This document shows, in pieces, positions 5,651 through 49,501 of a DNA stretch of 64,000 nt. The notes under the pieces are model-generated. The model saw only the letters and a program-made list of their open reading frames with translations, was not told the DNA's origin and did no database searches. Both the position numbers and the translations under genes were made by a program. Source of the DNA: Streptomyces sp. NBC_00775 (GTDB lineage: Bacteria; Actinomycetota; Actinomycetes; Streptomycetales; Streptomycetaceae); NCBI RefSeq assembly GCF_036347135.1, contig NZ_CP108938.1, forward strand, positions 9,982,001-10,046,000, read 5' to 3'. How positions within the stretch are numbered: position 1 is the stretch's first letter; the number at the start of each line of letters is the position of its first letter.

Positions 5651-5856
5651 GACCATCCCGATGCTTGAGATCTTTCCCCGGCCGGGTCGGGCCGTGTGAG
5701 GCGAAGGTATCGCGTGCGCACGGCGGCTCGGCCGGTGCCCTTTCGGACACATGGCGTGTTCACCGACGGCACTGGCCGAACGTGAACGGGCGCTGTCGGC
5801 AAGGTACTTGACGTGCCTCCGGAATGGCGGCTCCCATATGGCGAGTCTCGTTGACT

Positions 5857-5878
5857 TTTGTTCGAGTCTGCGAACAAA
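5857..5878. promoter_or_regulatory. Perfect 8-bp inverted repeat upstream of the alpha-galactosidase gene
   Basis: The arms TTTGTTCG and CGAACAAA are perfectly complementary around a 6-nt spacer, 20 bp before the start codon and overlapping the expected promoter/leader. The size and symmetry suit a dimeric repressor of the LacI, ROK or GntR type controlling the galactosidase; no such regulator gene is adjacent. Confidence 0.55.
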
Positions 5879-5897
5879 CCGCTCAAGGGAGAGCCGC

Positions 5898-7904
5898 ATG
5901 TCCCCCCATTCGCACACCGCGCGCCTCAGAGGCCTCCTGAGGCGCGCAGCCGTTCAGTGCGCCGTCCTGTGCCTCGCCGTCGCCGGACTGGCCGGAGTCG
6001 GGCGCTCCGCCGCGCCGCTCTCGGCCGAGCCGACCGCCGTCAGCACCACCCAGATCGGGGTCAACCCGGCTCCGATGGGCTGGGCGTCCTGGAACACCTT
6101 CGCCAGCGTCATCGACTACGACACCATCAAGGCCCAGGCCGACGCCCTCGTCTCGTCCGGCATGGCCGCCGCCGGCTACAAGTACGTCAACCTCGACGAG
6201 GGCTGGTGGCTGGGCACCCGCGACAGCAGCGGCAACATCACCGTCGACACCGCCAAGTGGCCCGGCGGGATGAAGGCCATCGTGGACTACATCCACAGCA
6301 AGGGCCTCAAGGCCGGGATCTACACCGACGCCGGGAAGAACGGCTGCGGTTACTACTACCCGACCCCCTCGACGACGCCCGCCGCGCCCAACACCGGGAT
6401 GGAGGGCCACAACCAGCAGGACCTGGAGACCTTCCAGAACTGGGGCTTCGACTTCCTCAAGATCGACTGGTGCGGCGGCAACGTCGAGGGCCTCGACCAG
6501 GAGACGACGTACAAGGCGATCCGCGACGCGAACGTGGCCGCGACAGCCGTCACCGGCAAGTCGCTCGTCCTGTCGCTGTGCGAGTGGGGCACCGGCAACC
6601 CCTGGAACTGGGCCGCCGGCACGGGTGACATGTGGCGCACCAGCACCGACATCGTCTACTACCCCGACAACCCGACGATGTCGAGCATCCTCGCCAACTT
6701 CGACAAGTCGCTGCACCCGGCCGCCCAGCACACCGGCTACTACAACGACCCGGACATGATGACGGTCGGCATGAGCGGTCTGAGCGCCGCCCAGAACCGT
6801 ACCCACATGGGCCTGTGGGCGATCTCCGGCGCACCGCTGCTCGCGGGCAACAACCTCGCCACCATGAGCTCGACGACCACCTCGATCCTGACCAACTCCG
6901 AGGTCATCGCCATCGACCAGGACACCCGCGGCCTCCAGGGCGTCAAGGTCGCCGAGGACAGCACCGGCCTTCAGGTCTACAGCAAGATCCTCTCCGGAAC
7001 CGGCAAGCGCGCGGTCCTGCTGCTCAACCGTACGTCCGCCGCGGCGAACATCACCGCCCGCTGGGCCGACATGGGTCTGACCACGGCCTCCGCCGCGGTG
7101 CGCAACGTCTGGTCGGCGTCCAACGTCGGCTCGTACGCGACGAGTTACACCACCAGCGTGCCCGCCGGTGAGGGCGTCCTGCTCACCGTCTCCGGCACGG
7201 AGGGCTCGGGGACGACGTACGAGGACACGACCTCGGCCACGACGCCGACGTTCACCGGGGTCACCACGGCCGCCGCGGGCACCAAGCTCGTCGACATCAC
7301 CTACGCCAACAGCGGCTCCACCGCCCGCAAGGCGACCCTCCAGGTCAACGGCCAGTACACGCAGACCCTCGCCTTCCCGCCCACCGGGTCGTCGACGACG
7401 TACCGCACGGTCTCCGTTCTGGCCAGCATGGCGAAGGGCTCCAACACGCTGACCTTCGGGACGTCCGGCACGGCACCCGACATCGACGCCGTCGCGGTCC
7501 GCGCCATCCCCGGCACCAACGGCACGGCGGTCGTCGGCACCGGGTCCGGCCGCTGCCTCGACTTCTTCAAGAGCTCCATCACCAACAACACCCAGGCCGA
7601 ACTCTGGGACTGCGGCGGCGGCCAGAACCAGACGTTCACGTACACCTCGCGCAGCGAACTCGTCGTCTATGGCAACAAGTGCCTCGACGCCTACAACAGC
7701 GGCACCGCCAACGGCACCAAGGTGGTCCTCTGGGACTGCAACGGCGGCACCAACCAGAAGTGGACCGTCAACTCCAACGGCACCATCACCAACAACGTCT
7801 CCGGCCTGTGCCTCGACGTCTACAACAACGGCACGGCGAACGGAGCGCTGATCGACCTGTGGTCGTGCAACGGGGGAACGAACCAGCAGTGGACGCGCAA
7901 CTGA
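5898..7904 (+). CDS. Secreted GH27 alpha-galactosidase with ricin-type lectin domain
   Basis: The 668-residue product starts at the ATG after AAGGGAGAG. It has a signal peptide (about residues 1-44), then a GH27 barrel beginning GWASWNTF. The nucleophile is Asp190 in FLKIDWCGG, and the acid/base lies in YYNDPDMM (Asp286 by alignment with human alpha-galactosidase A). A beta-sandwich follows to about residue 400, then a CBM35/CBM6-like module (about 410-510), then a ricin B beta-trefoil (about 520-668) with repeated QxW and CLD motifs. It should release terminal alpha-galactose from galactomannan or raffinose-type sugars outside the cell. The longer open frame upstream lacks a ribosome-binding site. 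A perfect palindrome sits in its leader and a hairpin follows the gene. Confidence 0.95.
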   Translation: MSPHSHTARLRGLLRRAAVQCAVLCLAVAGLAGVGRSAAPLSAEPTAVSTTQIGVNPAPMGWASWNTFASVIDYDTIKAQADALVSSGMAAAGYKYVNLDEGWWLGTRDSSGNITVDTAKWPGGMKAIVDYIHSKGLKAGIYTDAGKNGCGYYYPTPSTTPAAPNTGMEGHNQQDLETFQNWGFDFLKIDWCGGNVEGLDQETTYKAIRDANVAATAVTGKSLVLSLCEWGTGNPWNWAAGTGDMWRTSTDIVYYPDNPTMSSILANFDKSLHPAAQHTGYYNDPDMMTVGMSGLSAAQNRTHMGLWAISGAPLLAGNNLATMSSTTTSILTNSEVIAIDQDTRGLQGVKVAEDSTGLQVYSKILSGTGKRAVLLLNRTSAAANITARWADMGLTTASAAVRNVWSASNVGSYATSYTTSVPAGEGVLLTVSGTEGSGTTYEDTTSATTPTFTGVTTAAAGTKLVDITYANSGSTARKATLQVNGQYTQTLAFPPTGSSTTYRTVSVLASMAKGSNTLTFGTSGTAPDIDAVAVRAIPGTNGTAVVGTGSGRCLDFFKSSITNNTQAELWDCGGGQNQTFTYTSRSELVVYGNKCLDAYNSGTANGTKVVLWDCNGGTNQKWTVNSNGTITNNVSGLCLDVYNNGTANGALIDLWSCNGGTNQQWTRN

Positions 7905-8274: not shown

Positions 8275-10374
8275 GTGCGTACCCACCTCGACCGTCACCT
8301 CACCAACCCGCTGACCGCCGTCCGCAACCTGGGCATCCTCGCCCACGTCGACGCCGGGAAGACCACCGTCACCGAGCGGATCCTGTACGTCACCGGGACC
8401 ACCCACAAGCGTGGCGAGGTCCATGACGGCACGACCGTCACCGACTTCGACTCCCAGGAGCGAGACCGTGGGATCACCATCTTCGCCGCCGCCGTCAGCT
8501 GTGCCTGGGACGGCCACCGGATCAACCTGATCGACACACCGGGCCACGTCGACTTCTCGGACGAGGTGGAGCGCTCGCTGCGTGTCCTCGACGGCGCGAT
8601 CGCGGTGTTCGACGCCGTGGCGGGCGTCGAGCCGCAGAGCGAGTCGGTGTGGCGGCGGGCCGACCGGCACGGCGTACCGCGGATCGCCTTCGTCAACAAG
8701 CTGGACCGCGCCGGTGCCGACCTCGACACCGCGGTCGAGTCGATCCGGGAGCGGTTGCATCCGGCCCCGCTCGTCGTCCAGTTGCCGATCGGCGCGGAGA
8801 ACGCCTTCACCGGCGTGGTGGATCTGCTGCGTATGCGATCGCTGGTCTGGGCCGACGGCGGCGAAACGGTCGAGGAGGGACCGGTACCGGAAGCCCTGCG
8901 CCAAGAAGCGGAGCGGCGCCGCAGGCTGCTGGAGGAAGCGGTGGCGGAACTCCACCCCGCCGCGCTGGAGGAGATCTGCACCCGGTCCACCGTCACCGCG
9001 GCGACGCTGGCCGCCGCGCTGCGCGACCTGACCCGTACCGGCGAGGGCGTGGTGGTGTTGTGCGGCTCGGCCTACCGCAACCGCGGTATTGAGCCGCTGC
9101 TGGACGCCGCCGTCGCCTACCTGCCCTCGCCGCTGGACGTGCCGGCGGTACGCGGCACGCACGGCGGCACGGTGCAGGAGCGGGCCGCCGACCCGGCGGC
9201 GCCGTTCGCGGGGCTGGTGTTCAAGGTGAACGCGACGGCCACGGGACGGCTGACGTATGTACGCGTGTATTCCGGAACAGTGGGAAAGGGAGAGGCGGTG
9301 AGGGACGTGGGCGCGGGACGCACCGAGCGGATCGGCCGGATTCTGCGCGTCCAGGCCGACCGGTACGCGGAGCTGGAGTGCGCGGTGGCCGGTGACATCG
9401 TCGCGCTGATCGGGCCGAAGTCGGCCCGCGCGGGGGCGACTTTGAGCGCCTCCACGGCGCCGCTGCTCCTCGAACCGCCGGCCGTCGCCGATCCGGTCGT
9501 CTCCGTGGCGGTCGAGGCGCGCAGGAGCACCGACACCGACCGCTTGGTCTCGGCGTTGGCACGCCTGGTCGAGGAGGACCCCTCGCTGGTCGTCCGCACC
9601 GACTCCGAGACCGGCCAGACGGTGCTGTCGGGCATGGGCGAGCTGCATCTGGAGGTGGCGGTGGAGAAGATCCGGCGCGCCCACGGGCTGGAGATCGGTG
9701 TCGGCCGGCCGAAGGTGGCCTGTCGGGAGACGGTCGCCCGCGGGGTGTCGGGGCTCGTCCACCGGCACGTCAAACAGGACGGAGGCGCTGGTCAGTTCGC
9801 CCACGTGGTCCTCGACGTCGAGCCGCTGGAGGCCGATCCGAGCGGCGCCGACGGGAGCCCGACGGGCTTCGCGTTCCGCTCGACCGTGGTGGGCGGCCGG
9901 GTGCCGCAGGAGTACGTCCGCGCGGTGGAGGCCGGCTGCCGGGACGCTCTCGCCGAGGGACCGCTCGGCGGTCACCCGGTGACCGGGCTGCGCGTCACCC
10001 TGACCGATGGGGCGACCCATCCGAAGGACTCCTCGGAGATGGCGTTCCGCACGGCCGGCCGACTGGCGCTCCGCGAGGCACTGCGCGCCAGCGCGATGGT
10101 GCTCCTGGAACCGGTGGTCGAGGTCACCGTCACCGTGCCCGCCGACGCCGTGGGCGGGGTGCTCGGCGATCTGGCGGCACGGCGCGGCCGGGTCTCGGGC
10201 TCGCTCACCCGGGTCGGCGCGACGGTGATCACGGCGACCGTGCCGCTGGCCGAACTGTTCGGCTACGCGACCCGACTGCGCAGCCGCACCCAGGGCCGGG
10301 GAGTCTTCACCACCCGGCCCACCGGCTACGCCCCGGCACCGAGCCCGGCGTCCCACGGGACCCCGGCCCGGTAG
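8275..10374 (+). CDS. Elongation factor G paralogue (translational GTPase)
   Basis: The product is 699 residues from the GTG at 8275, which follows GAAAGG; the frame is open further upstream. All GTPase motifs are present near the N-terminus: AHVDAGKTT (G1), DRGITI (G2), DTPGHVD (G3) and NKLD (G4). EF-G domains II-V follow, including [10 protein letters not shown]. The length is that of EF-G and of ribosome-protection proteins (TetM/OtrA group). The gene is not in the str operon (no rpsL, rpsG or tuf nearby), so it is a second copy rather than the housekeeping factor; Streptomyces genomes commonly carry such a paralogue. Whether it translocates, recycles ribosomes or protects against an antibiotic cannot be told from sequence alone. 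Confidence 0.9.
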
Positions 10375-18495: not shown

Positions 18496-19416
18496 ATGGG
18501 AATCCAGAGAATCGAATCGGTCACCTACAGCGTCGAGGATCTCGACGAATGCGTCCGGTTCTTCGACGACTTCGGGCTCTTCCTGGTGGAGCAGACGGAC
18601 GAGCACGCGGTGTTCGAGACGCTCACCGGGCAGACCCTGCACCTCGACACCGAGCCCGGCCCGCTGCTGCCACCGCCACTGGAAGCCGGACCCACACTGC
18701 GCGAGGTGGTGTGGGGCGTGGACACCCCGCAGGAACTGGAGCGGCTGGCGGCGGCGGCAGGCCGCGACCGCGCGGTCCGGAAGGACGCCGCCGGTGTGTT
18801 CCACACCGTGGACGAGACCGGCTTCGGGGTCGGTCTGACCCTGGCCCGGCCCAAGCCCGCGGTCTTCGCCCCGCGGACTGCCAACGCGCTGGGCAGCGTC
18901 AGCCGCTGGAACACCGCCCTGGAACCGATCACCCGCGTACACCCCCTGCGTATGTGCCATGTCGCCCTGAACATCCTCAAGGAGGGCCGGGAGGAAGCCG
19001 TCGCGTTCTATGTGGAGCGCCTCGGTTTCCGGCCCACCGACGTGGTCGAGCCCATGGGTGTCTTCATGCAGGCGCCGGGCGACGAGGACCAGCACACGAT
19101 GCTGCTGTGCCACCGCCCCGACAGGGCCGGCGTCAACCACATCGCGTACGAGGTTCCCGGCTTCGACGACGTGATCGAGGGCGGCAACTACATGATCGAC
19201 CACGGCTGGCGCGAGGCCCGCAGGCTCGGCCGCCACACCGTCGGTTCGAACGTCTTCCGGTTCGTGCACGCGCCCTGCGGCGGGCGGGTCGAGTACGCCG
19301 CCGACATGGACCGGGTCGACGACTCGTACGAGACCCGCGTGCACGAGACCACACCGCCCCACCACATCTGGGCGCTGCGCACCAACCGCGACCAGCAGGA
19401 CGCCCCCGCCTCCTGA
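18496..19416 (+). CDS. Two-domain VOC protein, type-I extradiol dioxygenase-like
   Basis: The 306-residue protein contains two vicinal-oxygen-chelate domains. The C-terminal one keeps the 2-His-1-Glu iron site: His in RMCHVALN, His in VNHIAYEV and Glu in GGRVEYAADMD. The N-terminal domain (IESVTYSVEDLDECVRFF) lacks a site, as in catechol 2,3-dioxygenases. Size and layout fit ring-cleaving dioxygenases of the BphC/HpaD group. It starts at an ATG after GAGGAG and is followed by an aldehyde dehydrogenase and an FAH-family enzyme, the order of a meta-cleavage or homoprotocatechuate-type pathway. The substrate is not known. Confidence 0.85.
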   Translation: MGIQRIESVTYSVEDLDECVRFFDDFGLFLVEQTDEHAVFETLTGQTLHLDTEPGPLLPPPLEAGPTLREVVWGVDTPQELERLAAAAGRDRAVRKDAAGVFHTVDETGFGVGLTLARPKPAVFAPRTANALGSVSRWNTALEPITRVHPLRMCHVALNILKEGREEAVAFYVERLGFRPTDVVEPMGVFMQAPGDEDQHTMLLCHRPDRAGVNHIAYEVPGFDDVIEGGNYMIDHGWREARRLGRHTVGSNVFRFVHAPCGGRVEYAADMDRVDDSYETRVHETTPPHHIWALRTNRDQQDAPAS

Positions 19417-21712: not shown

Positions 21713-22080
21713 GCAACGCACCTCGCTACATCCACCACGTCAACTTCCCCACCACCGACTCCGACCGGACCGCCGAGTGGTACGCGAAGGTCTTCGGGAT
21801 GAAGCGGATCATGCCCAAGTCCAACACCCGTGTGGTGCTGATGACCCGCGGCAACTTCGACCTGCACTTCACCCCGGTCGAGGAGATGGAGCGCATGGCG
21901 CCCTATCACTTCGCGGTCGAGGTCGACGACTGGGACGACTTCCTCGCCCACCTCAAGGAGCTGGGCATCCGTCACACCCGGCCGATCGAACGCCCTGAGA
22001 ACCAGTCCAAGTTCTGCTATATCCACGACCCCGACCACACCATGATCGAGCTGGTCTGGCACGGCAAGCGCCCCAACTGA
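21709..22080 (+). CDS. Small single-domain VOC protein
   Basis: The 123-residue protein resembles glyoxalase I and small extradiol-type enzymes. Candidate metal ligands are His in YIHHVNFPT, His in APYHFAVEV and Glu in HTMIELVWHG. It overlaps the FAH gene by 4 bp, so it belongs to the same transcript. It could be an isomerase, a dioxygenase partner or a lyase; a glutathione-type substrate is unlikely in an actinomycete. Confidence 0.85.
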   Translation: MSNAPRYIHHVNFPTTDSDRTAEWYAKVFGMKRIMPKSNTRVVLMTRGNFDLHFTPVEEMERMAPYHFAVEVDDWDDFLAHLKELGIRHTRPIERPENQSKFCYIHDPDHTMIELVWHGKRPN

Positions 22081-22130
22081 CCGCGCACCGCAAGGACTTC
22101 ACGACCCCGTACCACGAGGAGTTCACCCCC

Positions 22131-40167: not shown

Positions 40168-40201
40168 TTGTTGACAATCTTGTTGGTCTAGATTTACGTT
40201 C
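40168..40201 (+). promoter_or_regulatory. Promoter and GntR-type operator of the gal-like operon
   Basis: ATTGTTGACAAT (40168-40179) is a palindrome with ATTGT/ACAAT arms, matching the TnGTnnnACnA-like sites of FadR-class GntR proteins. TTGACA within it (40172-40177) is a good -35 box, with TACGTT 18 bp later as -10. The operator therefore covers the -35 region, suited to repression. The same 11 bases recur before the MFS gene. Confidence 0.65.
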
Positions 40202-40228: not shown

Positions 40229-40879
40229 ATGCAGAAGGAAGCCCGTCCAGGCACCGGAGAGCAGGCCAAGCAGCACGCACTGGTGCGGCTTCGGCAGGCG
40301 ATCCTGCAAGGCGAGATGGCACCGGCCCAGCGGCTGGTGGAGAACGAACTCGCCGAGCAGTTCGATGTCACTCGGGCCAGCGTCCGGGCGGCGCTGATCG
40401 AGCTGGAATCGGAGGGACTGGTCGAGCGGATCCGCAACCGCGGATCGCGGGTGCGGGTGGTGACGGTCGAGGAAGCAGTGGCCATCACCGAGTGCCGCAT
40501 GGCCCTCGAAGGACTGTGCGCGGCCAAGGCGGCCGTGGCGGCCAGCGATGAACAGCTCGCAGAGCTGAGCGACTTGGGCAAGGCGATGTCCAAGGCGGTC
40601 GCCGACGGTGAGCCGGTGACGTACTCCGAGCTCAATCACGAAGTGCACGCCCGGATCAGGGAGTTCTCCGGTCAGCAGGTGGCCGTGGAGCTCCTGGAGC
40701 GCCTCAACGCTCAACTGGTGCGCCACCGCTTCCAGTTGGCCCTGCGGCCGGGGCGTGCCCAGCAGTCCCTGAGTGAACACCTGGACATGATCGAAGCGAT
40801 CAAGTCCAGGGACCCGCAGGCGGCCGAAGCGGCCGTCCGCGTCCACCTCGGCAGTGTGATCGACGCGCTGCGCGACTGA
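40229..40879 (+). CDS. GntR-family (FadR/FCD type) regulator of the gal-like operon
   Basis: The 216-residue protein has the GntR winged helix (ALVRLRQAILQGEMAPAQRLVENELAEQFDVTRASVRAALIELESEGLV, residues 17-65). A helical FCD ligand domain follows, with candidate metal residues in LNHEVHARI, EHLDMIEAI and VRVHLGSV. It is the first gene of the operon, 78 bp before the PIG-L-type gene. It probably represses its own operon and the aromatic-acid transporter until a pathway acid binds. Confidence 0.9.
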   Translation: MQKEARPGTGEQAKQHALVRLRQAILQGEMAPAQRLVENELAEQFDVTRASVRAALIELESEGLVERIRNRGSRVRVVTVEEAVAITECRMALEGLCAAKAAVAASDEQLAELSDLGKAMSKAVADGEPVTYSELNHEVHARIREFSGQQVAVELLERLNAQLVRHRFQLALRPGRAQQSLSEHLDMIEAIKSRDPQAAEAAVRVHLGSVIDALRD

Positions 40880-40957: not shown

Positions 40958-41707
40958 ATGACGCACGGCAAAGCGCCCGCCACCCCACGATCGACGCTGG
41001 TCGTCACCGCGCATGCCGGGGACTTCGTGTGGAGGGCCGGGGGAGCCATCGCCCTGGCCGCCGCCCGCGGTGAGAAGGTCACCATCGCGTGCCTGACCTT
41101 CGGCGAGCGCGGCGAGTCGGCCAAGGCGTGGCGCGAGGGCAAGAAGCTCGAGGAGATCAAGGCGATACGCCGCGAGGAGGCCGAGAAGGCCGCCTCCACC
41201 CTCGGTGCCGAGGTCCGCTTCTTCGACGCCGGCGACTACCCGCTGACCGCCACCGCCGAGCTGACCGACCAGCTGGTGGCCGTCTACCGCGAGACCCAGC
41301 CGGACGTCGTCCTCACCCACCCGGTCGAGGACCCCTACAACGGCGACCACCCGGCCGCCAACCGGATGGCGCTGGAGGCCCGCGTCCTCGCCCAGGCCAT
41401 CGGCTACCCCGGCCCGGGCGAGATCATCGGTGCCCCGCCGGTCTTCTACTTCGAGCCGCACCAGCCCGAGATGAGCGGCTTCAAGCCCGAGGTGCTCCTC
41501 GACATCACCGAGGTCTGGCAGACCAAGCGCAAGGCCATGGAGTGCCTCGGCGCCCAGCAGCACCTGTGGGACTACTACACCGACCTCGCCGTCCGCCGCG
41601 GTGTCCAGCTCAAGCGCAACGCCGGTCCGAACCTGGGCCTGGCCCACAAGACCATGGCCGAGGCGTACATGCGCCCCTACCCGCAGATCGCGAAGGAGCT
41701 GGCATAG
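40958..41707 (+). CDS. galB: 4-Oxalomesaconate hydratase-like protein (GalB, PIG-L fold)
   Basis: The 249-residue LmbE/PIG-L-fold protein starts after AAGGAG. The first metal motif reads TAHAGDFVWRAGG instead of the deacetylase HPDD, and the second HPVEDPYNGDHPAANRM is intact. GalB of Pseudomonas putida, which hydrates 4-oxalomesaconate to 4-carboxy-4-hydroxy-2-oxoadipate, is a PIG-L protein, and the GalC- and GalD-like genes follow directly. This makes GalB the best call; a deacetylase is the alternative. It ends 2 bp before the next start. Confidence 0.8.
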   Translation: MTHGKAPATPRSTLVVTAHAGDFVWRAGGAIALAAARGEKVTIACLTFGERGESAKAWREGKKLEEIKAIRREEAEKAASTLGAEVRFFDAGDYPLTATAELTDQLVAVYRETQPDVVLTHPVEDPYNGDHPAANRMALEARVLAQAIGYPGPGEIIGAPPVFYFEPHQPEMSGFKPEVLLDITEVWQTKRKAMECLGAQQHLWDYYTDLAVRRGVQLKRNAGPNLGLAHKTMAEAYMRPYPQIAKELA

Positions 41708-41709
41708 CC

Positions 41710-42414
41710 ATGGGCGGTGTGATCGTCACCAACCCGCCGAAGGCGGACGCGAAGGACGTCGAGGCGCTGGCCGCCTTCGGCGTGGCCACCGTCAGCGAGG
41801 CCATGGGCCGCACCGGTCTCCTCGGGCCGGAGATCCGCCCGGTCCAGCAGGGCGTACGGGTCGCGGGCACCGCGGTCACCGTGCTCAGCTGGCCCGGCGA
41901 CAACCTCATGATCCACGCGGCCGTGGAGCAGTGCGGCGAGGGCGACATCCTGGTCGTCACCACCACCTCGCCGTGCGCGGACGGCCTGTTCGGCGAACTC
42001 TTCGCCACCGCGCTCCAGCAGCGCGGGGTGCGTGGCGTCGTCATCAACACCGGCATCCGCGACACCCAGGAACTGCGGGACATGGGCTTCGCCGGCTGGT
42101 CCCGCGCCGTCTCCTCGCAGGGCACCGTCAAGGCCACCGGCGGGTCGGTCAATGTGCCGGTCGCCATCGACGGCCAGGTCGTCCGCCCCGGTGACGTGAT
42201 CGTCGCCGACGACGACGGTGTGGTGGTCGTACCACGCGAGAAGGCCCGCGAGACCGCGGAGAAGTCCGAGGCCCGCGAGGCCAAGGAGGCCGCCACCCGG
42301 GCCGCCTTCCTCGAAGGACAGCTCGGCCTCGACCGCTACGGACTGCGCGACACCCTCAAGCGTCTCGGCGTCGAGTACAAGACGTACGAGGAGTACACCG
42401 GAGCCGGGTCGTGA
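41710..42414 (+). CDS. galC: 4-Carboxy-4-hydroxy-2-oxoadipate aldolase (GalC/LigK, RraA fold)
   Basis: The 234-residue RraA-like protein has the active-site signature GVVINTGIRDTQEL (the G-x-RD pattern of HMG/CHA aldolases) and PGDVIVADDDGVVVVP. These class II aldolases cleave CHA to pyruvate and oxaloacetate and also decarboxylate oxaloacetate. True RraA proteins are about 160 residues; this length is that of the aldolases. It overlaps the next gene by 4 bp. Confidence 0.88.
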   Translation: MGGVIVTNPPKADAKDVEALAAFGVATVSEAMGRTGLLGPEIRPVQQGVRVAGTAVTVLSWPGDNLMIHAAVEQCGEGDILVVTTTSPCADGLFGELFATALQQRGVRGVVINTGIRDTQELRDMGFAGWSRAVSSQGTVKATGGSVNVPVAIDGQVVRPGDVIVADDDGVVVVPREKARETAEKSEAREAKEAATRAAFLEGQLGLDRYGLRDTLKRLGVEYKTYEEYTGAGS

Positions 42415-43496
42415 CCGGGCCCGAGGAGGTGCGCTGCATGCTGATGCGCGGCGGCACCTCCAAGGGCGCCTACTTCCTGGCCGAGGACCTGCCCGCCGAC
42501 GCAGCCGCGCGCGACGACCTGCTGCTGCGTGTCATGGGCAGCCCCGACCCGCGCCAGATCGACGGCCTGGGCGGGGCGCACCCCCTGACCAGCAAGGTGG
42601 CCGTGGTCTCCGCCTCGGCCCACCCCGAGGCGGACGTCGACTATCTCTTCCTCCAAGTCGTCGTCGACAGAGCGGAGGTGTCGGACCGTCAGAACTGCGG
42701 CAACATCCTCGCCGGGATCGGCCCGTTCGCCGTCGAACGCGGACTGGTCGCCCCGGGCGAGGGACAGACGTCCGTACGGATCCGGATGGTCAACACCGGT
42801 GACCTCGCGGTCGCGAGCTTCCCCACCGAGGGCGGTCGCGTCGTGTACACCGGCTCCGCCGAGATCTCCGGAGTGCCGGGGACCGCGGCGCCGGTCGTGA
42901 TCGAGTTCCCGCAGGGGAGCAGTCCGCTGCTGCCCACCGGCCACGCCCGCGACCTTCTCGCGGACACCCCGGTGACCTGCGTGGACAACGGCATGCCGAC
43001 CGTCCTGATCGCGGCCTCCTCCCTCGATGTCACGGGCTATGAGGCGCCCAAGGACCTTGAGGAGAACCTCACCCTCGCCGACCGGCTCCGGGAGATCCGG
43101 CTGGAGGCGGGCAAGCTGATGGGCCTCGGTGACGTCGAGAGCGCCACCGTGCCCAAGCTCACCCTGCTGGCGCCGCCGCGCGACGACGGCGCCGTCATGA
43201 CCCGCACCTTCATTCCGGTGCGTTGCCACACCTCCATCGGAGTCCTCGGCGCCGCGAGCGTCGCCGCCGGGCTACGGGTGGAGGGCGGCGTCGGACAGGC
43301 CATGGCACGCCTGCCCGAGAGGGGGGACCGGCTGCGCATCGAGCACCCCACGGGGTTCCTCGACATCGAGGCCGGTATCGAGTACGGCCCTGACGGCGCC
43401 CCGGTGGCCCGGCACACCGCCGTCGTACGCACCGCCCGAAAGATCTTCGACGGCACGGTCTTCCCCCGGCCGGCCGGAGCCGCACATCACCTTTAA
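42411..43496 (+). CDS. galD: 4-Oxalomesaconate tautomerase-like protein (GalD, PrpF family)
   Basis: The product is 361 residues from a GTG that overlaps the GalC stop. PrpF/GalD family blocks are VRCMLMRGGTSKGAYFLAEDLP at the start and DGLGGAHPLTSKVAVVSAS and QNCGNILAGIGPFAVE in the first domain, with Cys in the expected active-site position. GalD converts enol to keto 4-oxalomesaconate. The neighbouring hydratase and aldolase genes support GalD over methylaconitate isomerase PrpF. Confidence 0.85.
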   Translation: MTGPEEVRCMLMRGGTSKGAYFLAEDLPADAAARDDLLLRVMGSPDPRQIDGLGGAHPLTSKVAVVSASAHPEADVDYLFLQVVVDRAEVSDRQNCGNILAGIGPFAVERGLVAPGEGQTSVRIRMVNTGDLAVASFPTEGGRVVYTGSAEISGVPGTAAPVVIEFPQGSSPLLPTGHARDLLADTPVTCVDNGMPTVLIAASSLDVTGYEAPKDLEENLTLADRLREIRLEAGKLMGLGDVESATVPKLTLLAPPRDDGAVMTRTFIPVRCHTSIGVLGAASVAAGLRVEGGVGQAMARLPERGDRLRIEHPTGFLDIEAGIEYGPDGAPVARHTAVVRTARKIFDGTVFPRPAGAAHHL

Positions 43497-43505
43497 GGAG
43501 GCCTC

Positions 43506-44456
43506 ATGGCCCCGCCGCTTGGCGACATCGCCCACATCGGGCACGTCGAACTGCTCACCCCCGACCTGGACGCCAGTGTCCGGTTCTTCACGGAGTACCT
43601 CGGCCTGACCGAGAACGGCCGCTCCGGAGACTCGGTCTATCTGCGGACCTGGGACGACTACGAGCATCACAGTCTGACCCTCACCGCCCATACGACATCG
43701 GGCATCCGCCGCACCGCCCTGCGCGCCTCCAGCGAGGAAGCCCTCCAGCGACGGGTCAAGGAGATCGAGAGCGCCGGCGGCCAGGGCCGCTGGGTCGAGG
43801 ACGAGCCCGGTATCGGCCCGCTCTACGTCACCACCGACCCCGACGGCCACGAGATCGCCCTGTACTGGGAGAGCGAGTGGTACCAGGCACCGGAGCATCT
43901 GAAGCCGGGCCTGAAGAACCAGCCGCAGGCCAAGCCCGGCCACGGGGTGGGCGTGCGCCGCCTGGACCACGTCAACTTCCTCGCCTCCGACGTCGCACCC
44001 AACGGCGACTTCATCCGCGACGCGCTGGGAGCCCGCCCCACCGAGCAGATCCAGCTCAACACCGGCAAGATCGCCGCCCAGTGGCTGACCTTCAGCAGCA
44101 AGTCGTACGACATTGTCTACACCGAGGACTGGACGGGTTCGAGCGGACGCCTGCACCACATCGCGTTCGCCACGGACACGCGTGAGGACATCCTGCGCGC
44201 CGCGGACCTCGCCATCGACACCGGTGTGTTCATCGAGACCGGCCCGCACAAGCACGCCATCCAGCAGACGTTCTTCCTGTACGTCTATGAGCCGGGCGGC
44301 AACCGTATCGAGCTGTGCAACCCGCTCACCCGCCTTGTCCTGGCCCCCGACTGGCCACTGGTCACCTGGACCGAGGACGAGCGGAAGAAGGGCCAGGCCT
44401 GGGGCCTGAAGACCATCGAGTCCTTCCACACCCACGGCACGCCGCCGGTCGGCTGA
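43506..44456 (+). CDS. Type-I (VOC) extradiol ring-cleaving dioxygenase
   Basis: The 316-residue protein has two VOC domains. The C-terminal domain keeps the iron triad: His in RRLDHVNFL, His in RLHHIAFAT and Glu in LYVYEPGGNRIELCN. That last block closely follows the extradiol dioxygenase signature (LY-x2-E-P-x-G-x3-E). It starts after AAGGAGGCCTC, 9 bp after the tautomerase gene. Catechol 2,3-dioxygenase is the nearest well-known relative. Because gallate and protocatechuate 4,5-dioxygenases are normally type-II (LigB fold) enzymes, its place here is unusual. Confidence 0.9.
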   Translation: MAPPLGDIAHIGHVELLTPDLDASVRFFTEYLGLTENGRSGDSVYLRTWDDYEHHSLTLTAHTTSGIRRTALRASSEEALQRRVKEIESAGGQGRWVEDEPGIGPLYVTTDPDGHEIALYWESEWYQAPEHLKPGLKNQPQAKPGHGVGVRRLDHVNFLASDVAPNGDFIRDALGARPTEQIQLNTGKIAAQWLTFSSKSYDIVYTEDWTGSSGRLHHIAFATDTREDILRAADLAIDTGVFIETGPHKHAIQQTFFLYVYEPGGNRIELCNPLTRLVLAPDWPLVTWTEDERKKGQAWGLKTIESFHTHGTPPVG

Positions 44457-44522
44457 TCAGCTGAGCCTTGTCCGCTGGTAGCCCGTTGGTCACCTGAGCG
44501 AATAAAACAAGCCATCACGCAA

Positions 44523-44556
44523 GCGTGGGCGGCACGTCACTTTGTGCCGCCCACGC
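44523..44556 (+). terminator. Terminator after the dioxygenase gene
   Basis: A 13-bp perfect stem (GCGTGGGCGGCAC with GTGCCGCCCACGC) and an 8-nt loop separate the catabolic operon from the transporter gene, which has its own promoter. Confidence 0.88.
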
Positions 44557-44619
44557 CCGTTTCACCTGTTCTTCAGCTGCCTGTGGCACCGTCGTGGCGG
44601 TGGCCGGATCGTTTCCTAG

Positions 44620-44664
44620 ATTGTTGACAAAACCGTTGACACTCTCGAAACGAATCTTTAGCGT
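44620..44664 (+). promoter_or_regulatory. Promoter and second GntR-type operator, before the transporter
   Basis: ATTGTTGACAA (44620-44630) repeats the 11 bases found before the GntR gene. A consensus -35 TTGACA lies at 44636-44641, then exactly 17 bp to TAGCGT at 44659-44664 as -10. The operator sits just upstream of the -35 box. The start codon is 96 bp downstream. Confidence 0.68.
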
Positions 44665-44759
44665 CTGGGGCACAATCGGGTCAGCCGCACGAGCCGCGTC
44701 GACCCGCCTCACCGATCCCCCTTCCAGGGCCCACGCTTCCTGGACGAGAGGAAACAACG

Positions 44760-46085
44760 ATGTCCTCCTCCCTCGCCCTGCCCGCTCGCGGCGGCAGAAT
44801 GGCCGCGCTTGTCGTCGGCCTCTGTTGGCTGGTCGTCCTCTTCGACGGCCTCGACATGTTCATCTACGGCTCCGTGCTCCCGCACATGATGGAGACCAAG
44901 GCCCTCGGCATCGACCCCGGCAAGGCCGGCGACGTCGGTTCCTACGCCACCTTCGGCATGTTGATCGGCGCCCTGTCCTCCGGCACCGTCAGCGACTGGG
45001 TCGGCCGCAAGAAGACGATCATCGTGTCGACCGCGGTGTTCTCCCTGGCCTCCGCCGTCTGCGCCTCCGCCTCCAGCCTCGGCATGTTCAGCTTCGGCCG
45101 GTTCCTGGCGGGCCTCGGTCTCGGCGGCCTGCTGCCGAGCGCCATCACCATGGTCACCGAGTACGCCCCCCGCGGTCGCCGCGCCCTGATCGTCGGCTCC
45201 CTGATGACCGCGCACCAGGCGGGCGGCATCGTCGCCGGCTTCGTGGCGCTGTGGACCGGCGACTGGCGTGTCTCCTTCTGGATCTGCGTGATCCCGCTGT
45301 TCATCGGTGTCCCGCTGGCCGCCAAGTTCCTGCCCGAGTCGATGGCCTTCCTCCAGGCCAAGGGCCGCACCGCGGACGCCCAGGCGCTCGCCGACCGCTA
45401 CGGCGTCGAGCTGGCCGCCCGTGACAAGGAGCGCCCGGCCGCGACCGACCGCTTCAGCGCGCTCACCGCCCTCTTCCGCGGTCGCCAGTGGGTCCAGACC
45501 CTGCTCTTCTGGCTGGCCTCATTCGGCGGCCTCCTGCTGGTCTACGGCGTCTCCCAGTGGCTGCCTTCGCTGATGAAGGCCAACGGCTACGACCTCGGCT
45601 CCTCGATCGGCTTCGTCATCGTCATCAACCTCGGCGGCATCGTCGGCATGCTGATCGGCGGCCGGCTCACCGACAAGTTCGGCGGCTCGCGCATCTCCGC
45701 CATCTGGTTCGGCGCCACCGCCCTCGGTATCTACTCCCTCAGCATCAAGATGGCGCTGCCGCTCACCTACACCGTCGTCTTCCTGACCGGCATGTTCCTC
45801 TTCAGCGCCCAGGCGATGATCTACGCCACCGTGGCGCACCGCTCGGACGACGACAACCGCGCCACCGCGGTCGGCTGGACCTCCGGCATGGGCCGCTTCG
45901 GTGCCGTCTTCGGCCCGTGGCTCGGCGGCCAGCTGCTCGCCACCGGCTCGACCACCGCGGGCTTCACGGCCTTCGCCGTCGCCGGCGTGTTCGCCATGGT
46001 GATGGTCAGCCTGACCGGCCTGCGCCGCGTCCAGCCGGCGGTGCCGCAGAGCACCACGCAGCAGGAGTTGACGCCCACCGGCTGA
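44760..46085 (+). CDS. MFS aromatic-acid:H+ symporter (PcaK-like)
   Basis: The 441-residue twelve-helix MFS protein of the aromatic acid:H+ symporter family has the DGLDMFIYGSVLP motif in helix 1. The loop 2-3 motif reads GTVSDWVGRKKTIIV and a later loop GGRLTDKFGGSRISA. Relatives PcaK, GalT and BenK import protocatechuate, gallate or benzoate. With the gal-type genes just upstream and the shared operator, uptake of gallate or a related hydroxybenzoate is the best inference. Confidence 0.92.
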   Translation: MSSSLALPARGGRMAALVVGLCWLVVLFDGLDMFIYGSVLPHMMETKALGIDPGKAGDVGSYATFGMLIGALSSGTVSDWVGRKKTIIVSTAVFSLASAVCASASSLGMFSFGRFLAGLGLGGLLPSAITMVTEYAPRGRRALIVGSLMTAHQAGGIVAGFVALWTGDWRVSFWICVIPLFIGVPLAAKFLPESMAFLQAKGRTADAQALADRYGVELAARDKERPAATDRFSALTALFRGRQWVQTLLFWLASFGGLLLVYGVSQWLPSLMKANGYDLGSSIGFVIVINLGGIVGMLIGGRLTDKFGGSRISAIWFGATALGIYSLSIKMALPLTYTVVFLTGMFLFSAQAMIYATVAHRSDDDNRATAVGWTSGMGRFGAVFGPWLGGQLLATGSTTAGFTAFAVAGVFAMVMVSLTGLRRVQPAVPQSTTQQELTPTG

Positions 46086-46101: not shown

Positions 46102-46147
46102 ACACGCGCCTGGGCAGGGCCTGAGGAGGCCCGGCCCAGGCGCGTGT
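46102..46147 (+). terminator. Large terminator after the MFS gene
   Basis: A 14-bp perfect outer stem (ACACGCGCCTGGGC with GCCCAGGCGCGTGT) encloses a second small stem (GGGCCT/AGGCCC). It is 16 bp after the stop. The following 225 bp up to 46372 show no gene. Confidence 0.9.
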
Positions 46148-46929: not shown

Positions 46930-47760
46930 TCAACTGCCGCCCAGGAGCCGGGAAATCTCCCGGCACGTCTCCCGCAGTGGCGGCAGCAGCTCGTCCGCCA
47001 GCCGGGACGGAGGGAACTCCATGGCGGGTACGGCCACATTGGCCGCGGCCACCATCGCGCCGGAGGAGTCCCGGACGGGCGCGGCCGCCGAGCGCAGCCC
47101 GTACGCGAGTTCCTCGTCCTGAAGCGCCCAGTCCTGCTTGCGGATCTCGGTCAGGGCGAACCGCAGCTCGGCCTCCGACCTGACGGCGTGGGGTCCCGCC
47201 GCCCCGGCGAAGGACGCGTCCGTCAGGCGCCGGTCGAGTTCGGCGTCGTCGAGGCCGCTGAGCAGCACCTTGCCGATCGAGGTACGGACCGCCGGAAGGC
47301 GTGAGCCGACCTGGATGTTGGCGGTCACCAGGTCGGTGTTGCGCAGCCGGATCAGGTACAGCACACGGTCGTCCGACAGAGTGCCCAGGTTGACCGTCTG
47401 CCCCGTCGCCTCGGCGAGCCTGCGCAAGGGGGCGTCGGCCAGCTGTACGAGGTCGAGGCCGCGCAGGGCGGAGAAGCCGAGGGTGAGCACCTTGGACGCC
47501 GGTCGGTAGGCGCCGTCCGGCAGTTGCTCCAGGAACCCCTCGCCCACCAGCGTGGCGGCCATGCGGAACGCGGTCGGCAGCGGCACTCCGGTCTCGGCGG
47601 CCATGTCCGAGAGCTTCATCGACGGGCGCTGTTCCGAGAAGAGTCCGAGGAGACGAAGTCCCTTGGCCAGCGCCTCCACTTGGTAACCGCGCTTCGGCGG
47701 CGTGGACTGGTCGGCGGGAGCGGGCGGCGACTCGCTGCGGGTCTCTTTGCGCGGGGGCAC
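46930..47760 (-). CDS. IclR-family transcriptional regulator of module E
   Basis: The product is 276 residues from a GTG start. A Pro/Ser-rich N-terminal tail of about 25 residues precedes the winged helix (ALAKGLRLLGLFSEQRPSMKLSDMAAETGVPLPTAFRMAATLVGEG). A GAF-like ligand domain follows, with VRTSIGKVLLSGL typical of the family. It is divergent from the CMD gene at 47865. Palindromes with TTCA/TGAA half-sites lie in that gap and before the FAH gene, so it likely controls both and itself. Confidence 0.92.
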   Translation of the reverse strand: MPPRKETRSESPPAPADQSTPPKRGYQVEALAKGLRLLGLFSEQRPSMKLSDMAAETGVPLPTAFRMAATLVGEGFLEQLPDGAYRPASKVLTLGFSALRGLDLVQLADAPLRRLAEATGQTVNLGTLSDDRVLYLIRLRNTDLVTANIQVGSRLPAVRTSIGKVLLSGLDDAELDRRLTDASFAGAAGPHAVRSEAELRFALTEIRKQDWALQDEELAYGLRSAAAPVRDSSGAMVAAANVAVPAMEFPPSRLADELLPPLRETCREISRLLGGS

Positions 47761-47809
47761 GACGGACGGCTCGCTTTCTGCACAGGGTTCAGCAAGGTTG
47801 GGCTGGCAC

Positions 47810-47824
47810 TTTCATTCTATGGAA
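47810..47824. promoter_or_regulatory. IclR-type operator candidate 1
   Basis: TTTCATTCTATGGAA lies midway between the divergent IclR and CMD genes and matches operator candidate 3 at 12 of 15 positions. The imperfect TTTCA/TGGAA half-sites suit an IclR dimer. Confidence 0.55.
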
Positions 47825-47864
47825 GCAGGTATCACATGAGGTTCGTCAGCGGAAAGGGCACCCG

Positions 47865-48479
47865 ATGACCGACCGGCTGGCCGCAATGACTCCGGACGAA
47901 CTCACGGACGGGCAGGCTGAGGTCTATCGGGCCATCACGCGTGGCCCCCGGGCCGCCGGACCGCAGGCGTTCGCGCTCGTCGACGAGAAGGGGTGCTTGC
48001 GGGGCCCCTTCAACGCCATGCTGCTGAGTCCGCCGGTCGGTCTGCGCGTGCAGGCCGTCGGTGCCGCGGTTCGCTACCACTCCGTGCTGAGCGACCGCGT
48101 CCGGGAGCTGGCCATTCTCGCGGTGGCGGCCCATTGGGGCAGCGACTTCGAGCGGGAGGCCCACGAGGCGGTGGGGCGTGCCTGTGGTCTGACCGACGAG
48201 GAGATGGCCGCCGTGCGCGCCGGTGGACTGCCCGAACTCGCCGACGCCGACGAGGGCGTGGCACTGCGCGCCGCGACCGCGCTGGCGGCTTCGGGTGCGC
48301 TGACGGACGAGGAGTACGAAGCCGCGGTGACGACACTGGGGGAGCGCGGCCTCTTCGAACTGACGGTGCTCGTCGGCTACTACGCCATGCTCGCCCTCCA
48401 ACTGCGCGTCTTCGCTGGTGAACGACCTGAATCCGGCCCCGGGGATGCCGCCGCGCCCCGGCGTCCGGCGAGACCTTGA
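47865..48479 (+). CDS. Carboxymuconolactone-decarboxylase-like (CMD/AhpD fold) protein, copy 3
   Basis: The 204-residue protein is of the same fold as those at 13007 and 32929 but more distant: CLRGPFNAMLLSPPVGLRVQAVGAAVRY, then VRELAILAVAAHWGSDFEREAHEAVGRACG. The core keeps a Glu and His in the CMD position, with no CxxC. The start codon follows GGAAAGGGCACCCG. It is the first gene under the IclR promoter; the FAH gene follows after a gap with two more operators. Confidence 0.86.
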   Translation: MTDRLAAMTPDELTDGQAEVYRAITRGPRAAGPQAFALVDEKGCLRGPFNAMLLSPPVGLRVQAVGAAVRYHSVLSDRVRELAILAVAAHWGSDFEREAHEAVGRACGLTDEEMAAVRAGGLPELADADEGVALRAATALAASGALTDEEYEAAVTTLGERGLFELTVLVGYYAMLALQLRVFAGERPESGPGDAAAPRRPARP

Positions 48480-48512
48480 CAGGCCGTCAGGGTGCCCCAA
48501 TACTCAACCGGG

Positions 48513-48546
48513 TTCATGGAGTGAAGTGAGGTTTCATTCAGTGAAA
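48513..48546. promoter_or_regulatory. Tandem IclR-type operator candidates 2 and 3
   Basis: TTCATGGAGTGAA (48513-48525) and TTTCATTCAGTGAAA (48532-48546) are both perfect TTCA-N5-TGAA palindromes with centres 20 bp apart, two helical turns. They lie between the CMD and FAH genes, so the FAH gene may have its own IclR-controlled promoter. Confidence 0.62.
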
Positions 48547-48566
48547 GTACAGGGAGGCAGGCCCCG

Positions 48567-48656
48567 ATGAAGCTGGTCACCGCTGACGATGGACGCCCGA
48601 GCGGACTGGAGGACGGGGGCCACGGAACTCCCGTACGGCAGAAGGCGGACCGGTGA
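48567..48656 (+). CDS. 29-codon ORF resembling an FAH-family N-terminus
   Basis: The ATG is preceded by a strong AGGGAGG, better than the site of the larger gene it runs into. The sequence opens MKLVTADDGRPSGL, like the start of many FAH-family enzymes (MKLVTFDDGR type), then stops at 48654, overlapping the GTG of the next gene (GTGA). It may be a truncated remnant of an FAH duplicate or a coupled leader that delivers ribosomes to the FAH start. Confidence 0.4.
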   Translation: MKLVTADDGRPSGLEDGGHGTPVRQKADR

Positions 48657-49501
48657 GGCTCGCTGTCGTCGCGGACCGGGCCGTCCTGCTGCGCGGCGGC
48701 CGGGCCGCGGACGTCGCCACCGCCTCGAAGCACCGGCTGCCGTCCGACCCGATGGCCCTGCTGGAGAAGTGGCCGGCGTTGCGCGACTGGGCGGCCGGCC
48801 TCCCCGAAGACGCGTACGACATGGCCGTGGACCCGGCTGCCCTCCAGGCGCCCGTGCCGCGACCCCGGCAGGTGTTCGCCGTCGCGCTCAACTACCCTCC
48901 GCACGCCGCCGAAGCGGGGTTCACGCCGCCCGAGGAGCCCCTGGTCTTCACCAAGTTCCCGACCTGCGTCACCGGCCCGCGCACCACCGTCGCCCTGCCT
49001 CCCGGCAAGGTGGACTGGGAGGTCGAACTCGTCGCGGTGATCGGCCGGGAGACCCACGGGGTGAGTCAGGAACAGGCCTGGGCCGCCGTGGCCGGGCTCA
49101 CCGTCGGCCAGGACCTCTCGGAGCGTGTCAGCCAACTCCAGGGGAAACCCGCACAGTTCAGCCTCGGCAAGTCCTTCCCCGGCTTCGGGCCCACCGGCCC
49201 CGTGCTGGTCACCCCGGACGAACTCGACGACCCCGACGACCTGGAGATCACCGGCTTCCTCAACGGTGACGCGATCCAGCACGACCGCACCAAGTCCATG
49301 ATCTTCCCGGTCCCGGACCTGGTGGCCCGCCTCTCCGCCGTCGTACGACTCCTCCCCGGCGACCTGATCTTCACCGGAACCCCGGCCGGAGTCGGCAACC
49401 GCCGCACCCCGCCCCGCTATCTCACCGAGGGCGACGAACTCGTCAGCCGGATCGGCGGCATCGGGGAACTGCGCCAGCACTTCACGGGACCCGCGGCCTG
49501 A
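48653..49501 (+). CDS. FAH-family hydrolase, module E
   Basis: The product is 282 residues from the GTG at 48653. FAH-domain motifs are VFAVALNYPPHAAEAG, the ExE ligands in VDWEVELVAVIGR, GQDLSERVSQ and LLPGDLIFTGTPAGVGN. Members are acylpyruvases, 2-hydroxyhepta-2,4-diene-1,7-dioate isomerases or ketopentenoate hydratases. Its start has only a weak ribosome-binding site, and translation may be coupled to the 29-codon ORF before it. It differs clearly in sequence from the FAH protein at 20942. Confidence 0.88.
   Translation: MRLAVVADRAVLLRGGRAADVATASKHRLPSDPMALLEKWPALRDWAAGLPEDAYDMAVDPAALQAPVPRPRQVFAVALNYPPHAAEAGFTPPEEPLVFTKFPTCVTGPRTTVALPPGKVDWEVELVAVIGRETHGVSQEQAWAAVAGLTVGQDLSERVSQLQGKPAQFSLGKSFPGFGPTGPVLVTPDELDDPDDLEITGFLNGDAIQHDRTKSMIFPVPDLVARLSAVVRLLPGDLIFTGTPAGVGNRRTPPRYLTEGDELVSRIGGIGELRQHFTGPAA

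Follow-up and report, generated by a model that had tools for sequence, protein, structure and literature searches.

A two-domain VOC extradiol enzyme as the probable gallate dioxygenase of a GntR-controlled gal cluster in Streptomyces sp. NBC_00775

Which enzyme opens the aromatic ring in a gallate-type pathway that contains no gene for the usual ring-cleaving dioxygenase? The question is raised by a gene cluster of Streptomyces sp. NBC_00775, which lies in the 64-kb stretch of DNA analysed here (the window; positions 9,982,001 to 10,046,000 of contig NZ_CP108938.1, numbered below from its first nucleotide). A sequence-only reading of this DNA had recognised GalB-, GalC- and GalD-like genes, an aromatic-acid symporter and a GntR regulator, and had suggested that a two-domain VOC (type I) extradiol enzyme fills the gap. 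Our comparisons of sequences and gene neighbourhoods make it likely that the locus is a regulon for gallate catabolism under GntR control, with a VOC-fold gallate dioxygenase that would give 4-oxalomesaconate (OMA).

In the pathway that we propose, the MFS protein would import gallate, and the VOC enzyme would hold two adjacent hydroxyls of gallate at its His-His-Glu metal site and, with O2, cleave the C4–C5 bond to give the enol form of OMA directly. By homology, GalD is expected to tautomerise OMA, GalB to hydrate the tautomerised form, and GalC to split the hydrated product into pyruvate and oxaloacetate. Because the C5 hydroxyl of gallate makes the cleavage product a carboxylate rather than an aldehyde, neither 4-carboxy-2-hydroxymuconate-6-semialdehyde (CHMS) dehydrogenase nor the 2-pyrone-4,6-dicarboxylate (PDC) hydrolase LigI would be needed. 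Neither is found in the operon, nor is an esterase for 4-carboxy-2-hydroxy-6-methoxy-6-oxohexa-2,4-dienoate (CHMOD). The VOC enzyme would stand in for GalA/DesB, the proteobacterial gallate dioxygenase, whose LigB fold is unrelated.

Family models, together with the solved relative 5cgz, bore out the GalB-, GalC- and GalD-like genes (Table 1). Residues 11–249 of GalB align with residues 2–240 of 5cgz, its best solved relative. GalC, for which the family scan began at 41722 (the ATG is at 41710), falls under the stricter TIGR02798 cut-off (290.1/304.5), and its gene overlaps galD by 4 bp. The VOC gene follows galD as had been described, with 9 bp between the end of galD (43496) and the ATG (43506) and with AAGGAGG overlapping the galD stop codon. 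The transporter is of the symporter type that had been named, TIGR00895 being its best family although the score is below cut-off, and it is probably the gallate importer. The GntR regulator is also present, but just outside the range 40958–46085 in which it had been placed. Family scans of the window proteins gave no catechol meta-pathway partner genes in the operon, and no second ring-cleaving candidate was seen there besides the VOC enzyme. The Pfam scan of the VOC protein itself gives VOC families only, with no LigB domain (PF02900).

The VOC protein contains two paired VOC domains in one chain, PF00903 matching two stretches of it. The AlphaFold model (mean pLDDT 90, pTM 0.91) is predicted to have the extradiol fold. 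A structure search, which the sequence-only reading had proposed, places it closest to AphC (TM 0.94), followed by catechol 2,3-dioxygenase and homoprotocatechuate 2,3-dioxygenase (HPCD). The metal ligands His155, His218 and Glu269 are intact and align with those of HPCD. In the relatives (the best 80 of 555 from one scan of genome contigs), both histidines occur at all 80 loci and Glu269 at 79, the remaining locus having no aligned residue there. The site had been described as intact, which is true of its ligands, but it departs from the canonical form in the second sphere: where type I extradiol enzymes have an acid/base histidine (His200 in HPCD), Tyr201 stands here. The two positions are taken as equivalent from the sequence alignment, in which they have an identical 8-residue spacing from the conserved Trp193.

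Tyr201 is found at all 80 loci, in 78 of the 79 rows of alignment A1 (the exception being the row of G096, described below), and in 119 of the 120 listed homologues of PDB entry 9wgj, whereas the equivalent residue is His in AphC, in HPCD and in all eight relatives outside the clade. A 66-row tree from which these columns were left out requires one change for the exchange of His for Tyr; the fork between the two types has an SH-aLRT support of only 77, and HPCD sits on a long branch. Tyr201 probably either takes over the proton-shuttling role of the canonical histidine or makes that role unnecessary, as far as sequence can indicate. A passage in PMC10760822 describes the HPCD reaction as vanishingly slow without His200; the list of solved structures includes the engineered HPCD variants H200E, H200Q, H200N and H200C. 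Lys199 was considered as a marker of the clade and rejected, since it is also present in the His-type relatives L077, L185 and L187. The frequency of His at residue 248 is partly an artefact, since the 80 loci were found with the pattern IETGPHKH; this residue is Ala in five stretches of the family f18 (see below). The listed 9wgj homologues (P0121–P0240), whose named sources are mostly Bacillota, form a sister clade in which residue 248 is Ser in 94 of 120. As to gene context in that clade, the plasmid search shows no Bacillus among the matches listed or in the organism counts.

The neighbourhood check that had been proposed for galBCD was carried out in 150 Streptomyces genomes, our own included, with a threshold of E ≤ 1e-70 for the VOC protein and the family cut-off for GalD; up to 15 first-look candidates were scored per genome here, and up to seven in the phylum sample described below. 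GalD is above cut-off in 42 genomes and the VOC protein is matched in 36. Thirty-five of these 36 matches immediately follow galD in the same orientation, with 14–163 bp between the matched ends, and all 35 have at least 80% identity; the other (G096) has 43% identity, is of the His type and does not adjoin GalD. A close VOC homologue (at least 80%) occurs in none of the 108 genomes without GalD above cut-off. Fisher's test was used for this association, ignoring the kinship of the genomes.

All seven genomes with GalD above cut-off but no VOC match were examined. Five of their clusters (L058, L061–L064) contain GntR, GalD, GalC and an MFS gene together with two gaps of about 1 kb, which hold two amidohydrolases in L058 and L062, the two that were translated. 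The L058 amidohydrolases match the OMA hydratase LigJ (2gwg, E = 2e-169) and LigI (4d8l, E = 2e-101), and each of the five clusters contains a LigI of at least 72% identity, the query being the L058 protein itself. L059 and L060 look like remnant clusters, with LigJ, GalC and LigI elsewhere in their genomes. The gene content thus indicates that the VOC clusters need OMA directly, while those without the VOC gene hold an entry enzyme for PDC. Two VOC clusters without GalB (G053, G055) have LigJ elsewhere in the genome, as does G118, which has GalB inside its VOC cluster. In the parts examined, the five clusters (GntR/GalD/LigJ/GalC/LigI/MFS) show no ring-cleaving gene, and they possibly serve PDC uptake or a shared lower pathway; two of these genomes have a LigB gene of the protocatechuate 4,5-dioxygenase type elsewhere.

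The sequence-only reading presented the arrangement as one of Streptomyces. It does occur there, but it is not peculiar to the genus, and we rejected the idea of a Streptomyces oddity on finding it in three phyla. A plasmid search gave 79 records, of which 20 were opened, and among the rows listed there is an identity gap from 52% to 41.5%. In a phylum sample of 296 genomes, six genomes of the family f18 have a VOC protein of 52–54% identity and no GalD at E ≤ 1e-60; five of the six stretches were taken, plus one further VOC (44%) from one of these genomes. The resulting linkage set has 107 VOC stretches, with G096 (L077) among them; L065, L066 and L201 hardly entered the comparisons. Residue 201 is Tyr in 99 stretches, from Actinomycetota, Pseudomonadota and Deinococcota, and His in eight. 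At least one of GalB, GalC, GalD and LigJ is present in 91 of the 99 Tyr-type stretches and at least two in 87; these counts do not come from independent stretches, since records titled Streptomyces supply 42 of the 99. Where at least 3 kb is available on both sides (n = 88), the numbers are 83 and 80. The linkage persists at 52–75% VOC identity. The His-type stretches contain no gal genes (0/8), and six of them carry catechol meta-pathway genes. The hydratase is GalB in 71 Tyr-type stretches and LigJ in 12; none has both and 16 have neither. Three of the eight Tyr-type stretches without gal genes lie at contig ends (L097, L111, L133); the others are L171, L177 and the Amycolatopsis stretches L158, L162 and L166, which contain a LigM/DesA-type demethylase and PurU. 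The Amycolatopsis stretches were dropped as counter-examples on account of the demethylase. A protein resembling DUF1932/NAD-binding dehydrogenases is found in 26 of the 99 Tyr-type stretches (e.g., L174, 402–1289). Where a stretch has no GalD match, a DUF6282 protein adjoins GalB in L172 (Thermus, 8597–9517) and L205 (9996–10934), and is a candidate for a replacement tautomerase.

Tannases and O-demethylases of the LigM/DesA type can both yield gallate; the tannase family also includes feruloyl esterases. Six of the 99 Tyr-type stretches have tannase-family genes (L103, L140, L160, L167, L168, L174), and so have two more from Streptomyces (L069, L071); PF07519 was confirmed for L069, L103 and L174. 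On a plasmid of a walnut Agrobacterium, the PIG-L, VOC, aldolase, OMA tautomerase and tannase genes stand in a row. LigM/DesA-type demethylases are present in seven of the 99, namely the three Amycolatopsis stretches and four of f18 (L202, L203, L205, L206); the L162 protein matches the vanillate/3-O-methylgallate O-demethylase 5x1i with E = 8e-139 and is below the NCBIfam cut-offs for DesA and LigM.

The genome of NBC_00775 is a single 11.1-Mb contig. The claim that no LigB-fold gene is present is true of the locus, but the whole genome has one PF02900 match, at 6.276 Mb and 3.7 Mb from the locus. Among the NCBIfam models it matches only that of 4,5-DOPA-extradiol dioxygenase (YgiD), and this below cut-off (178 bits against 233). 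A search for a LigB-type gallate dioxygenase elsewhere thus returned only this YgiD-like gene, and no gallate-type LigB gene was found in the genome by PF02900 search and NCBIfam scan. The VOC gene alone exceeds the TIGR03211 cut-off genome-wide, two others scoring about 114 bits. There are 11 matches to the intradiol-dioxygenase family (PF00775), with substrates unassigned, a tannase-family gene (397–398 bits), and a DesA/LigM homologue that scores 403 bits with the DesA model, whose cut-off is 800. DmpG is matched at best over 64 residues and nowhere at full length, other meta-pathway enzymes not having been searched genome-wide; given this partial match, a complete catechol meta route is not seen. 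The linkage across phyla, the alternation of GalB and LigJ, the linkage to tannase and O-demethylase genes and a genome without a gallate-type LigB argue from sequence that the VOC enzyme fills the gallate ring-cleavage gap, as the sequence-only reading had supposed.

A number of observations weigh against this assignment. The VOC protein is above the catechol 2,3-dioxygenase equivalog cut-off of TIGR03211 (339.8 against 320.2). In the stretch from a Roseomonas plasmid (L171), a LigB-fold gene (5423–6274) lies within 1 kb of the Tyr-type VOC gene and gal genes are absent, as they are from the Pantoea stretch (L177). A LigI-like gene occurs in six of the 99 Tyr-type stretches, and a weak match (32–35%) to the semialdehyde dehydrogenase of the catechol route in three. 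NBC_00775 has a LigI-like amidohydrolase (42% identity) at 0.604 Mb, which matches no family but 4-sulfomuconolactone hydrolase, and that below cut-off; we do not make the plain statement that the genome has no LigI, since this homologue exists. LigI of at least 71% identity is present elsewhere in 12 of the 35 VOC Streptomyces genomes, and the separation of VOC and LigI therefore holds for clusters and not for genomes. PF02900 has at least one match in all 43 genomes searched, and exactly one in 13 of the 35 VOC genomes. High-scoring LigB matches (224–242 bits) are found in five genomes, three with the VOC gene (G032, G104, G108) and two without (G045, G092). Each of the five exceeds the cut-off of NF009903 (class III extradiol beta subunit) but does not reach that of the gallate dioxygenase model; that of G104 is closest to the protocatechuate 4,5-dioxygenase LigB (1b4u, E = 1e-102) and then to the gallate dioxygenase 3wku (E = 5e-75). 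In the three VOC genomes, the gene is on another contig or more than 700 kb from the gal operon, and, judged by its sequence, this LigB of the protocatechuate 4,5-dioxygenase beta type might also take gallate. As a side observation, a Streptomyces genome (G027) has a LigB-fold 3-carboxyethylcatechol 2,3-dioxygenase above cut-off (L086, 1420–2355; 439/291). Finally, a passage of PMC12481942 reports that PcaHG turns gallate into PDC, so that a gallate dioxygenase of its own is not strictly required.

Several rival explanations were weighed. If the true substrate were 3-O-methylgallate (from syringate), with gallate secondary, the product CHMOD would close to PDC or be de-esterified and then yield OMA. 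This would suit Arthrobacter (L160, L164) and Nocardioides (L132), where the VOC gene is beside GalD-LigJ-GalC-LigI-MFS, and the demethylases in the three Amycolatopsis and four f18 stretches. However, the operon of NBC_00775 has no LigI or CHMOD esterase, and the genome's only LigI-like gene is the 42% homologue elsewhere; LigM also strips the second methyl group to give gallate, as the name of 5x1i implies; and the tannase linkage points to gallate. We infer gallate from sequence, as we do the role of Tyr201, and regard 3-O-methylgallate as rather unlikely for this enzyme; it is a possible substrate above all in the relatives with LigI. It is very improbable that the VOC protein acts on a later intermediate while a different dioxygenase opens gallate. 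VOC folds do catalyse many reactions, the catalytic His is replaced by Tyr, and LigB-fold genes accompany the VOC gene in L171 and, as the protocatechuate type, elsewhere in three of the 35 genomes; but no further ring-cleaving candidate is seen in the operon, the two-domain extradiol fold and its ligands are complete, and the later steps are already covered by GalB, GalC and GalD.

An ordinary catechol 2,3-dioxygenase, in the operon by accident, would explain the TIGR03211 score and the name given to most of the 120 listed matches with source names. It would not explain the adjacency to galD in 35 of 35 Streptomyces genomes, a linkage that is alike in three phyla, nor the Tyr in place of the acid/base His; the genome has no full DmpG match, and it is the His-type relatives that carry catechol meta genes (six of eight). 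With meta-pathway partners not seen and a different second-sphere residue, we rejected this explanation, whose chance of being right is extremely small. Protocatechuate, which the sequence-only reading had offered as a candidate substrate, fared poorly for either 4,5- or 2,3-cleavage. The downstream enzymes are common to the protocatechuate 4,5 route, and the meta-cleaving protocatechuate 2,3-dioxygenase PraA of Paenibacillus is known. But 4,5-cleavage requires CHMS dehydrogenase and LigI, both absent from the operon, 2,3-cleavage does not give OMA, and the genome has the intradiol-family genes mentioned above; we give this substrate next to no weight.

The gallate dioxygenase proposed here belongs to a known pathway and a known fold; new would be that a non-homologous enzyme serves a key step, that a catalytic residue has changed throughout its clade, and that the enzyme is widespread under a different name. 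The gal cluster of P. putida KT2440 (galTAP, galBCD, galR; layout from part of PMC12314914) likewise has GalB, GalC and GalD homologues and a transporter, with the same predicted lower pathway from OMA, but it has the LigB-fold GalA and a LysR regulator in place of the VOC enzyme and GntR. The reaction that we propose is that of the gallate and protocatechuate 4,5-dioxygenases GalA, DesB and LigAB (gallate to OMA), whose LigB fold is unrelated to VOC and is represented in NBC_00775 only by the YgiD/DOPA-like match. AphC, a Rhodococcus 4-alkylcatechol extradiol dioxygenase (7q2a, 3lm4), has 38% identity and the same metal ligands. It differs in retaining the acid/base His where Tyr201 stands here, and the plasmid protein nearest to it (L184) is encoded among catechol meta-pathway genes instead of gal genes. 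HPCD (1f1x, 1q0c) is also a two-domain VOC extradiol enzyme acting on a carboxylated catechol, but besides His200 it has arginines at the positions of Thr245 and Gly296, which are lost here and which presumably bind the substrate carboxylate. The best sequence match among solved structures is 9wgj ("Catechol 1,2-dioxygenase"; E = 2e-112), which shares Lys199 and Tyr201 but has Ser for His248 and Thr for Phe257. Over the aligned part, 9wgj does not differ from a Geobacillus zalihae protein; a literature search found no paper on the entry.

The open-access PMC literature (subscription papers lay outside the search) yielded no description of a VOC/type I gallate dioxygenase or of such gallate catabolism in Streptomyces or other Actinobacteria. 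In the portion of the AromaDeg description consulted, VOC extradiol substrates are named without gallate ("among others") and gallate dioxygenases are placed in the LigB superfamily. Extracts from PMC9867520 and PMC12314914 state that VanAB of Streptomyces sp. NL15-2K converts syringate.

We see an even chance that an unrecognised type I extradiol clade, whose members mostly go by the name "catechol 2,3-dioxygenase," opens the gallate ring widely across Actinomycetota and in part of the Pseudomonadota and Deinococcota. In this reading, His gave way to Tyr at the catalytic acid/base position once, long ago, when trihydroxybenzoates replaced catechols as substrates, and the proton of His200 is handled either by the third hydroxyl or by the Tyr itself. 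Hydrolysable tannins and syringyl lignin are both funnelled into gallate. If the proposal is true, many proteins now called catechol 2,3-dioxygenase, which is often taken as a sign of hydrocarbon degradation, would belong to tannin and lignin catabolism. A well-studied enzyme would have been replaced by a non-homologous one, a new enzyme of one chain would be available for producing OMA from lignin products, and nature would offer a test of whether the extradiol acid/base His, studied through the HPCD H200 variants, is truly required.

The features of the locus are collected in Table 1. TTGTNNACAA has exactly two copies in the window, before gntR and before the transporter gene (44621). The shorter TTGTTGACAA, with at most one mismatch, occurs four times in the window against 0.57 expected. 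It lies 5' of gntR in 41 of 49 related stretches and 5' of the transporter gene in 29 of 34, a few of these being one locus fetched twice. Because this motif precedes both, the sequence suggests that one GntR protein controls the operon and the transporter gene together.

Table 1. Features of the gal locus, in window positions.
Feature	Positions	Strand	Evidence or remarks
Palindromic TTGTTGACAA, probable GntR operator	40168..40177	+	51 bp 5' of gntR
GntR/FCD-family transcriptional regulator	40229..40879	+	PF00392 and PF07729 above cut-off
GalB-type (PIG-L fold) 4-oxalomesaconate hydratase	40958..41707	+	PF02585; P. putida GalB 5cgz, E = 5e-80
GalC/LigK-type 4-carboxy-4-hydroxy-2-oxoadipate aldolase	41710..42414	+	NF006731, 325.7 bits (cut-off 179)
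GalD, OMA tautomerase	42411..43496	+	NF033377, 484.5 bits (cut-off 440)
Two-domain VOC (type I) extradiol dioxygenase, proposed gallate dioxygenase	43506..44456	+	Pfam/NCBIfam scans, alignment, predicted structure
Perfect 13-nt inverted repeat, terminator-like hairpin	44523..44556	+	Arms 44523-44535 and 44544-44556; 3' of the dioxygenase gene; read from sequence
Second TTGTTGACAA, probable GntR operator	44621..44630	+	129 bp 5' of transporter gene
MFS transporter, aromatic acid/H+ symport type	44760..46085	+	PF07690; TIGR00895 best family, 269.1 bits (below cut-off 418.6)

Directly after the transporter gene, a terminator-like inverted repeat (46102–46147) has arms of 21 nt that are 95% complementary. 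Weak VOC-domain matches are found in the window at 18949–19332 and at 21730–22107, the latter with one internal TGA. Just 3' of the locus, at 46930–49501, are genes for an IclR regulator (PcaR/PobR-like, below cut-off), a carboxymuconolactone-decarboxylase-family protein and a FAH-family protein, perhaps a further aromatic or sugar-acid cluster.

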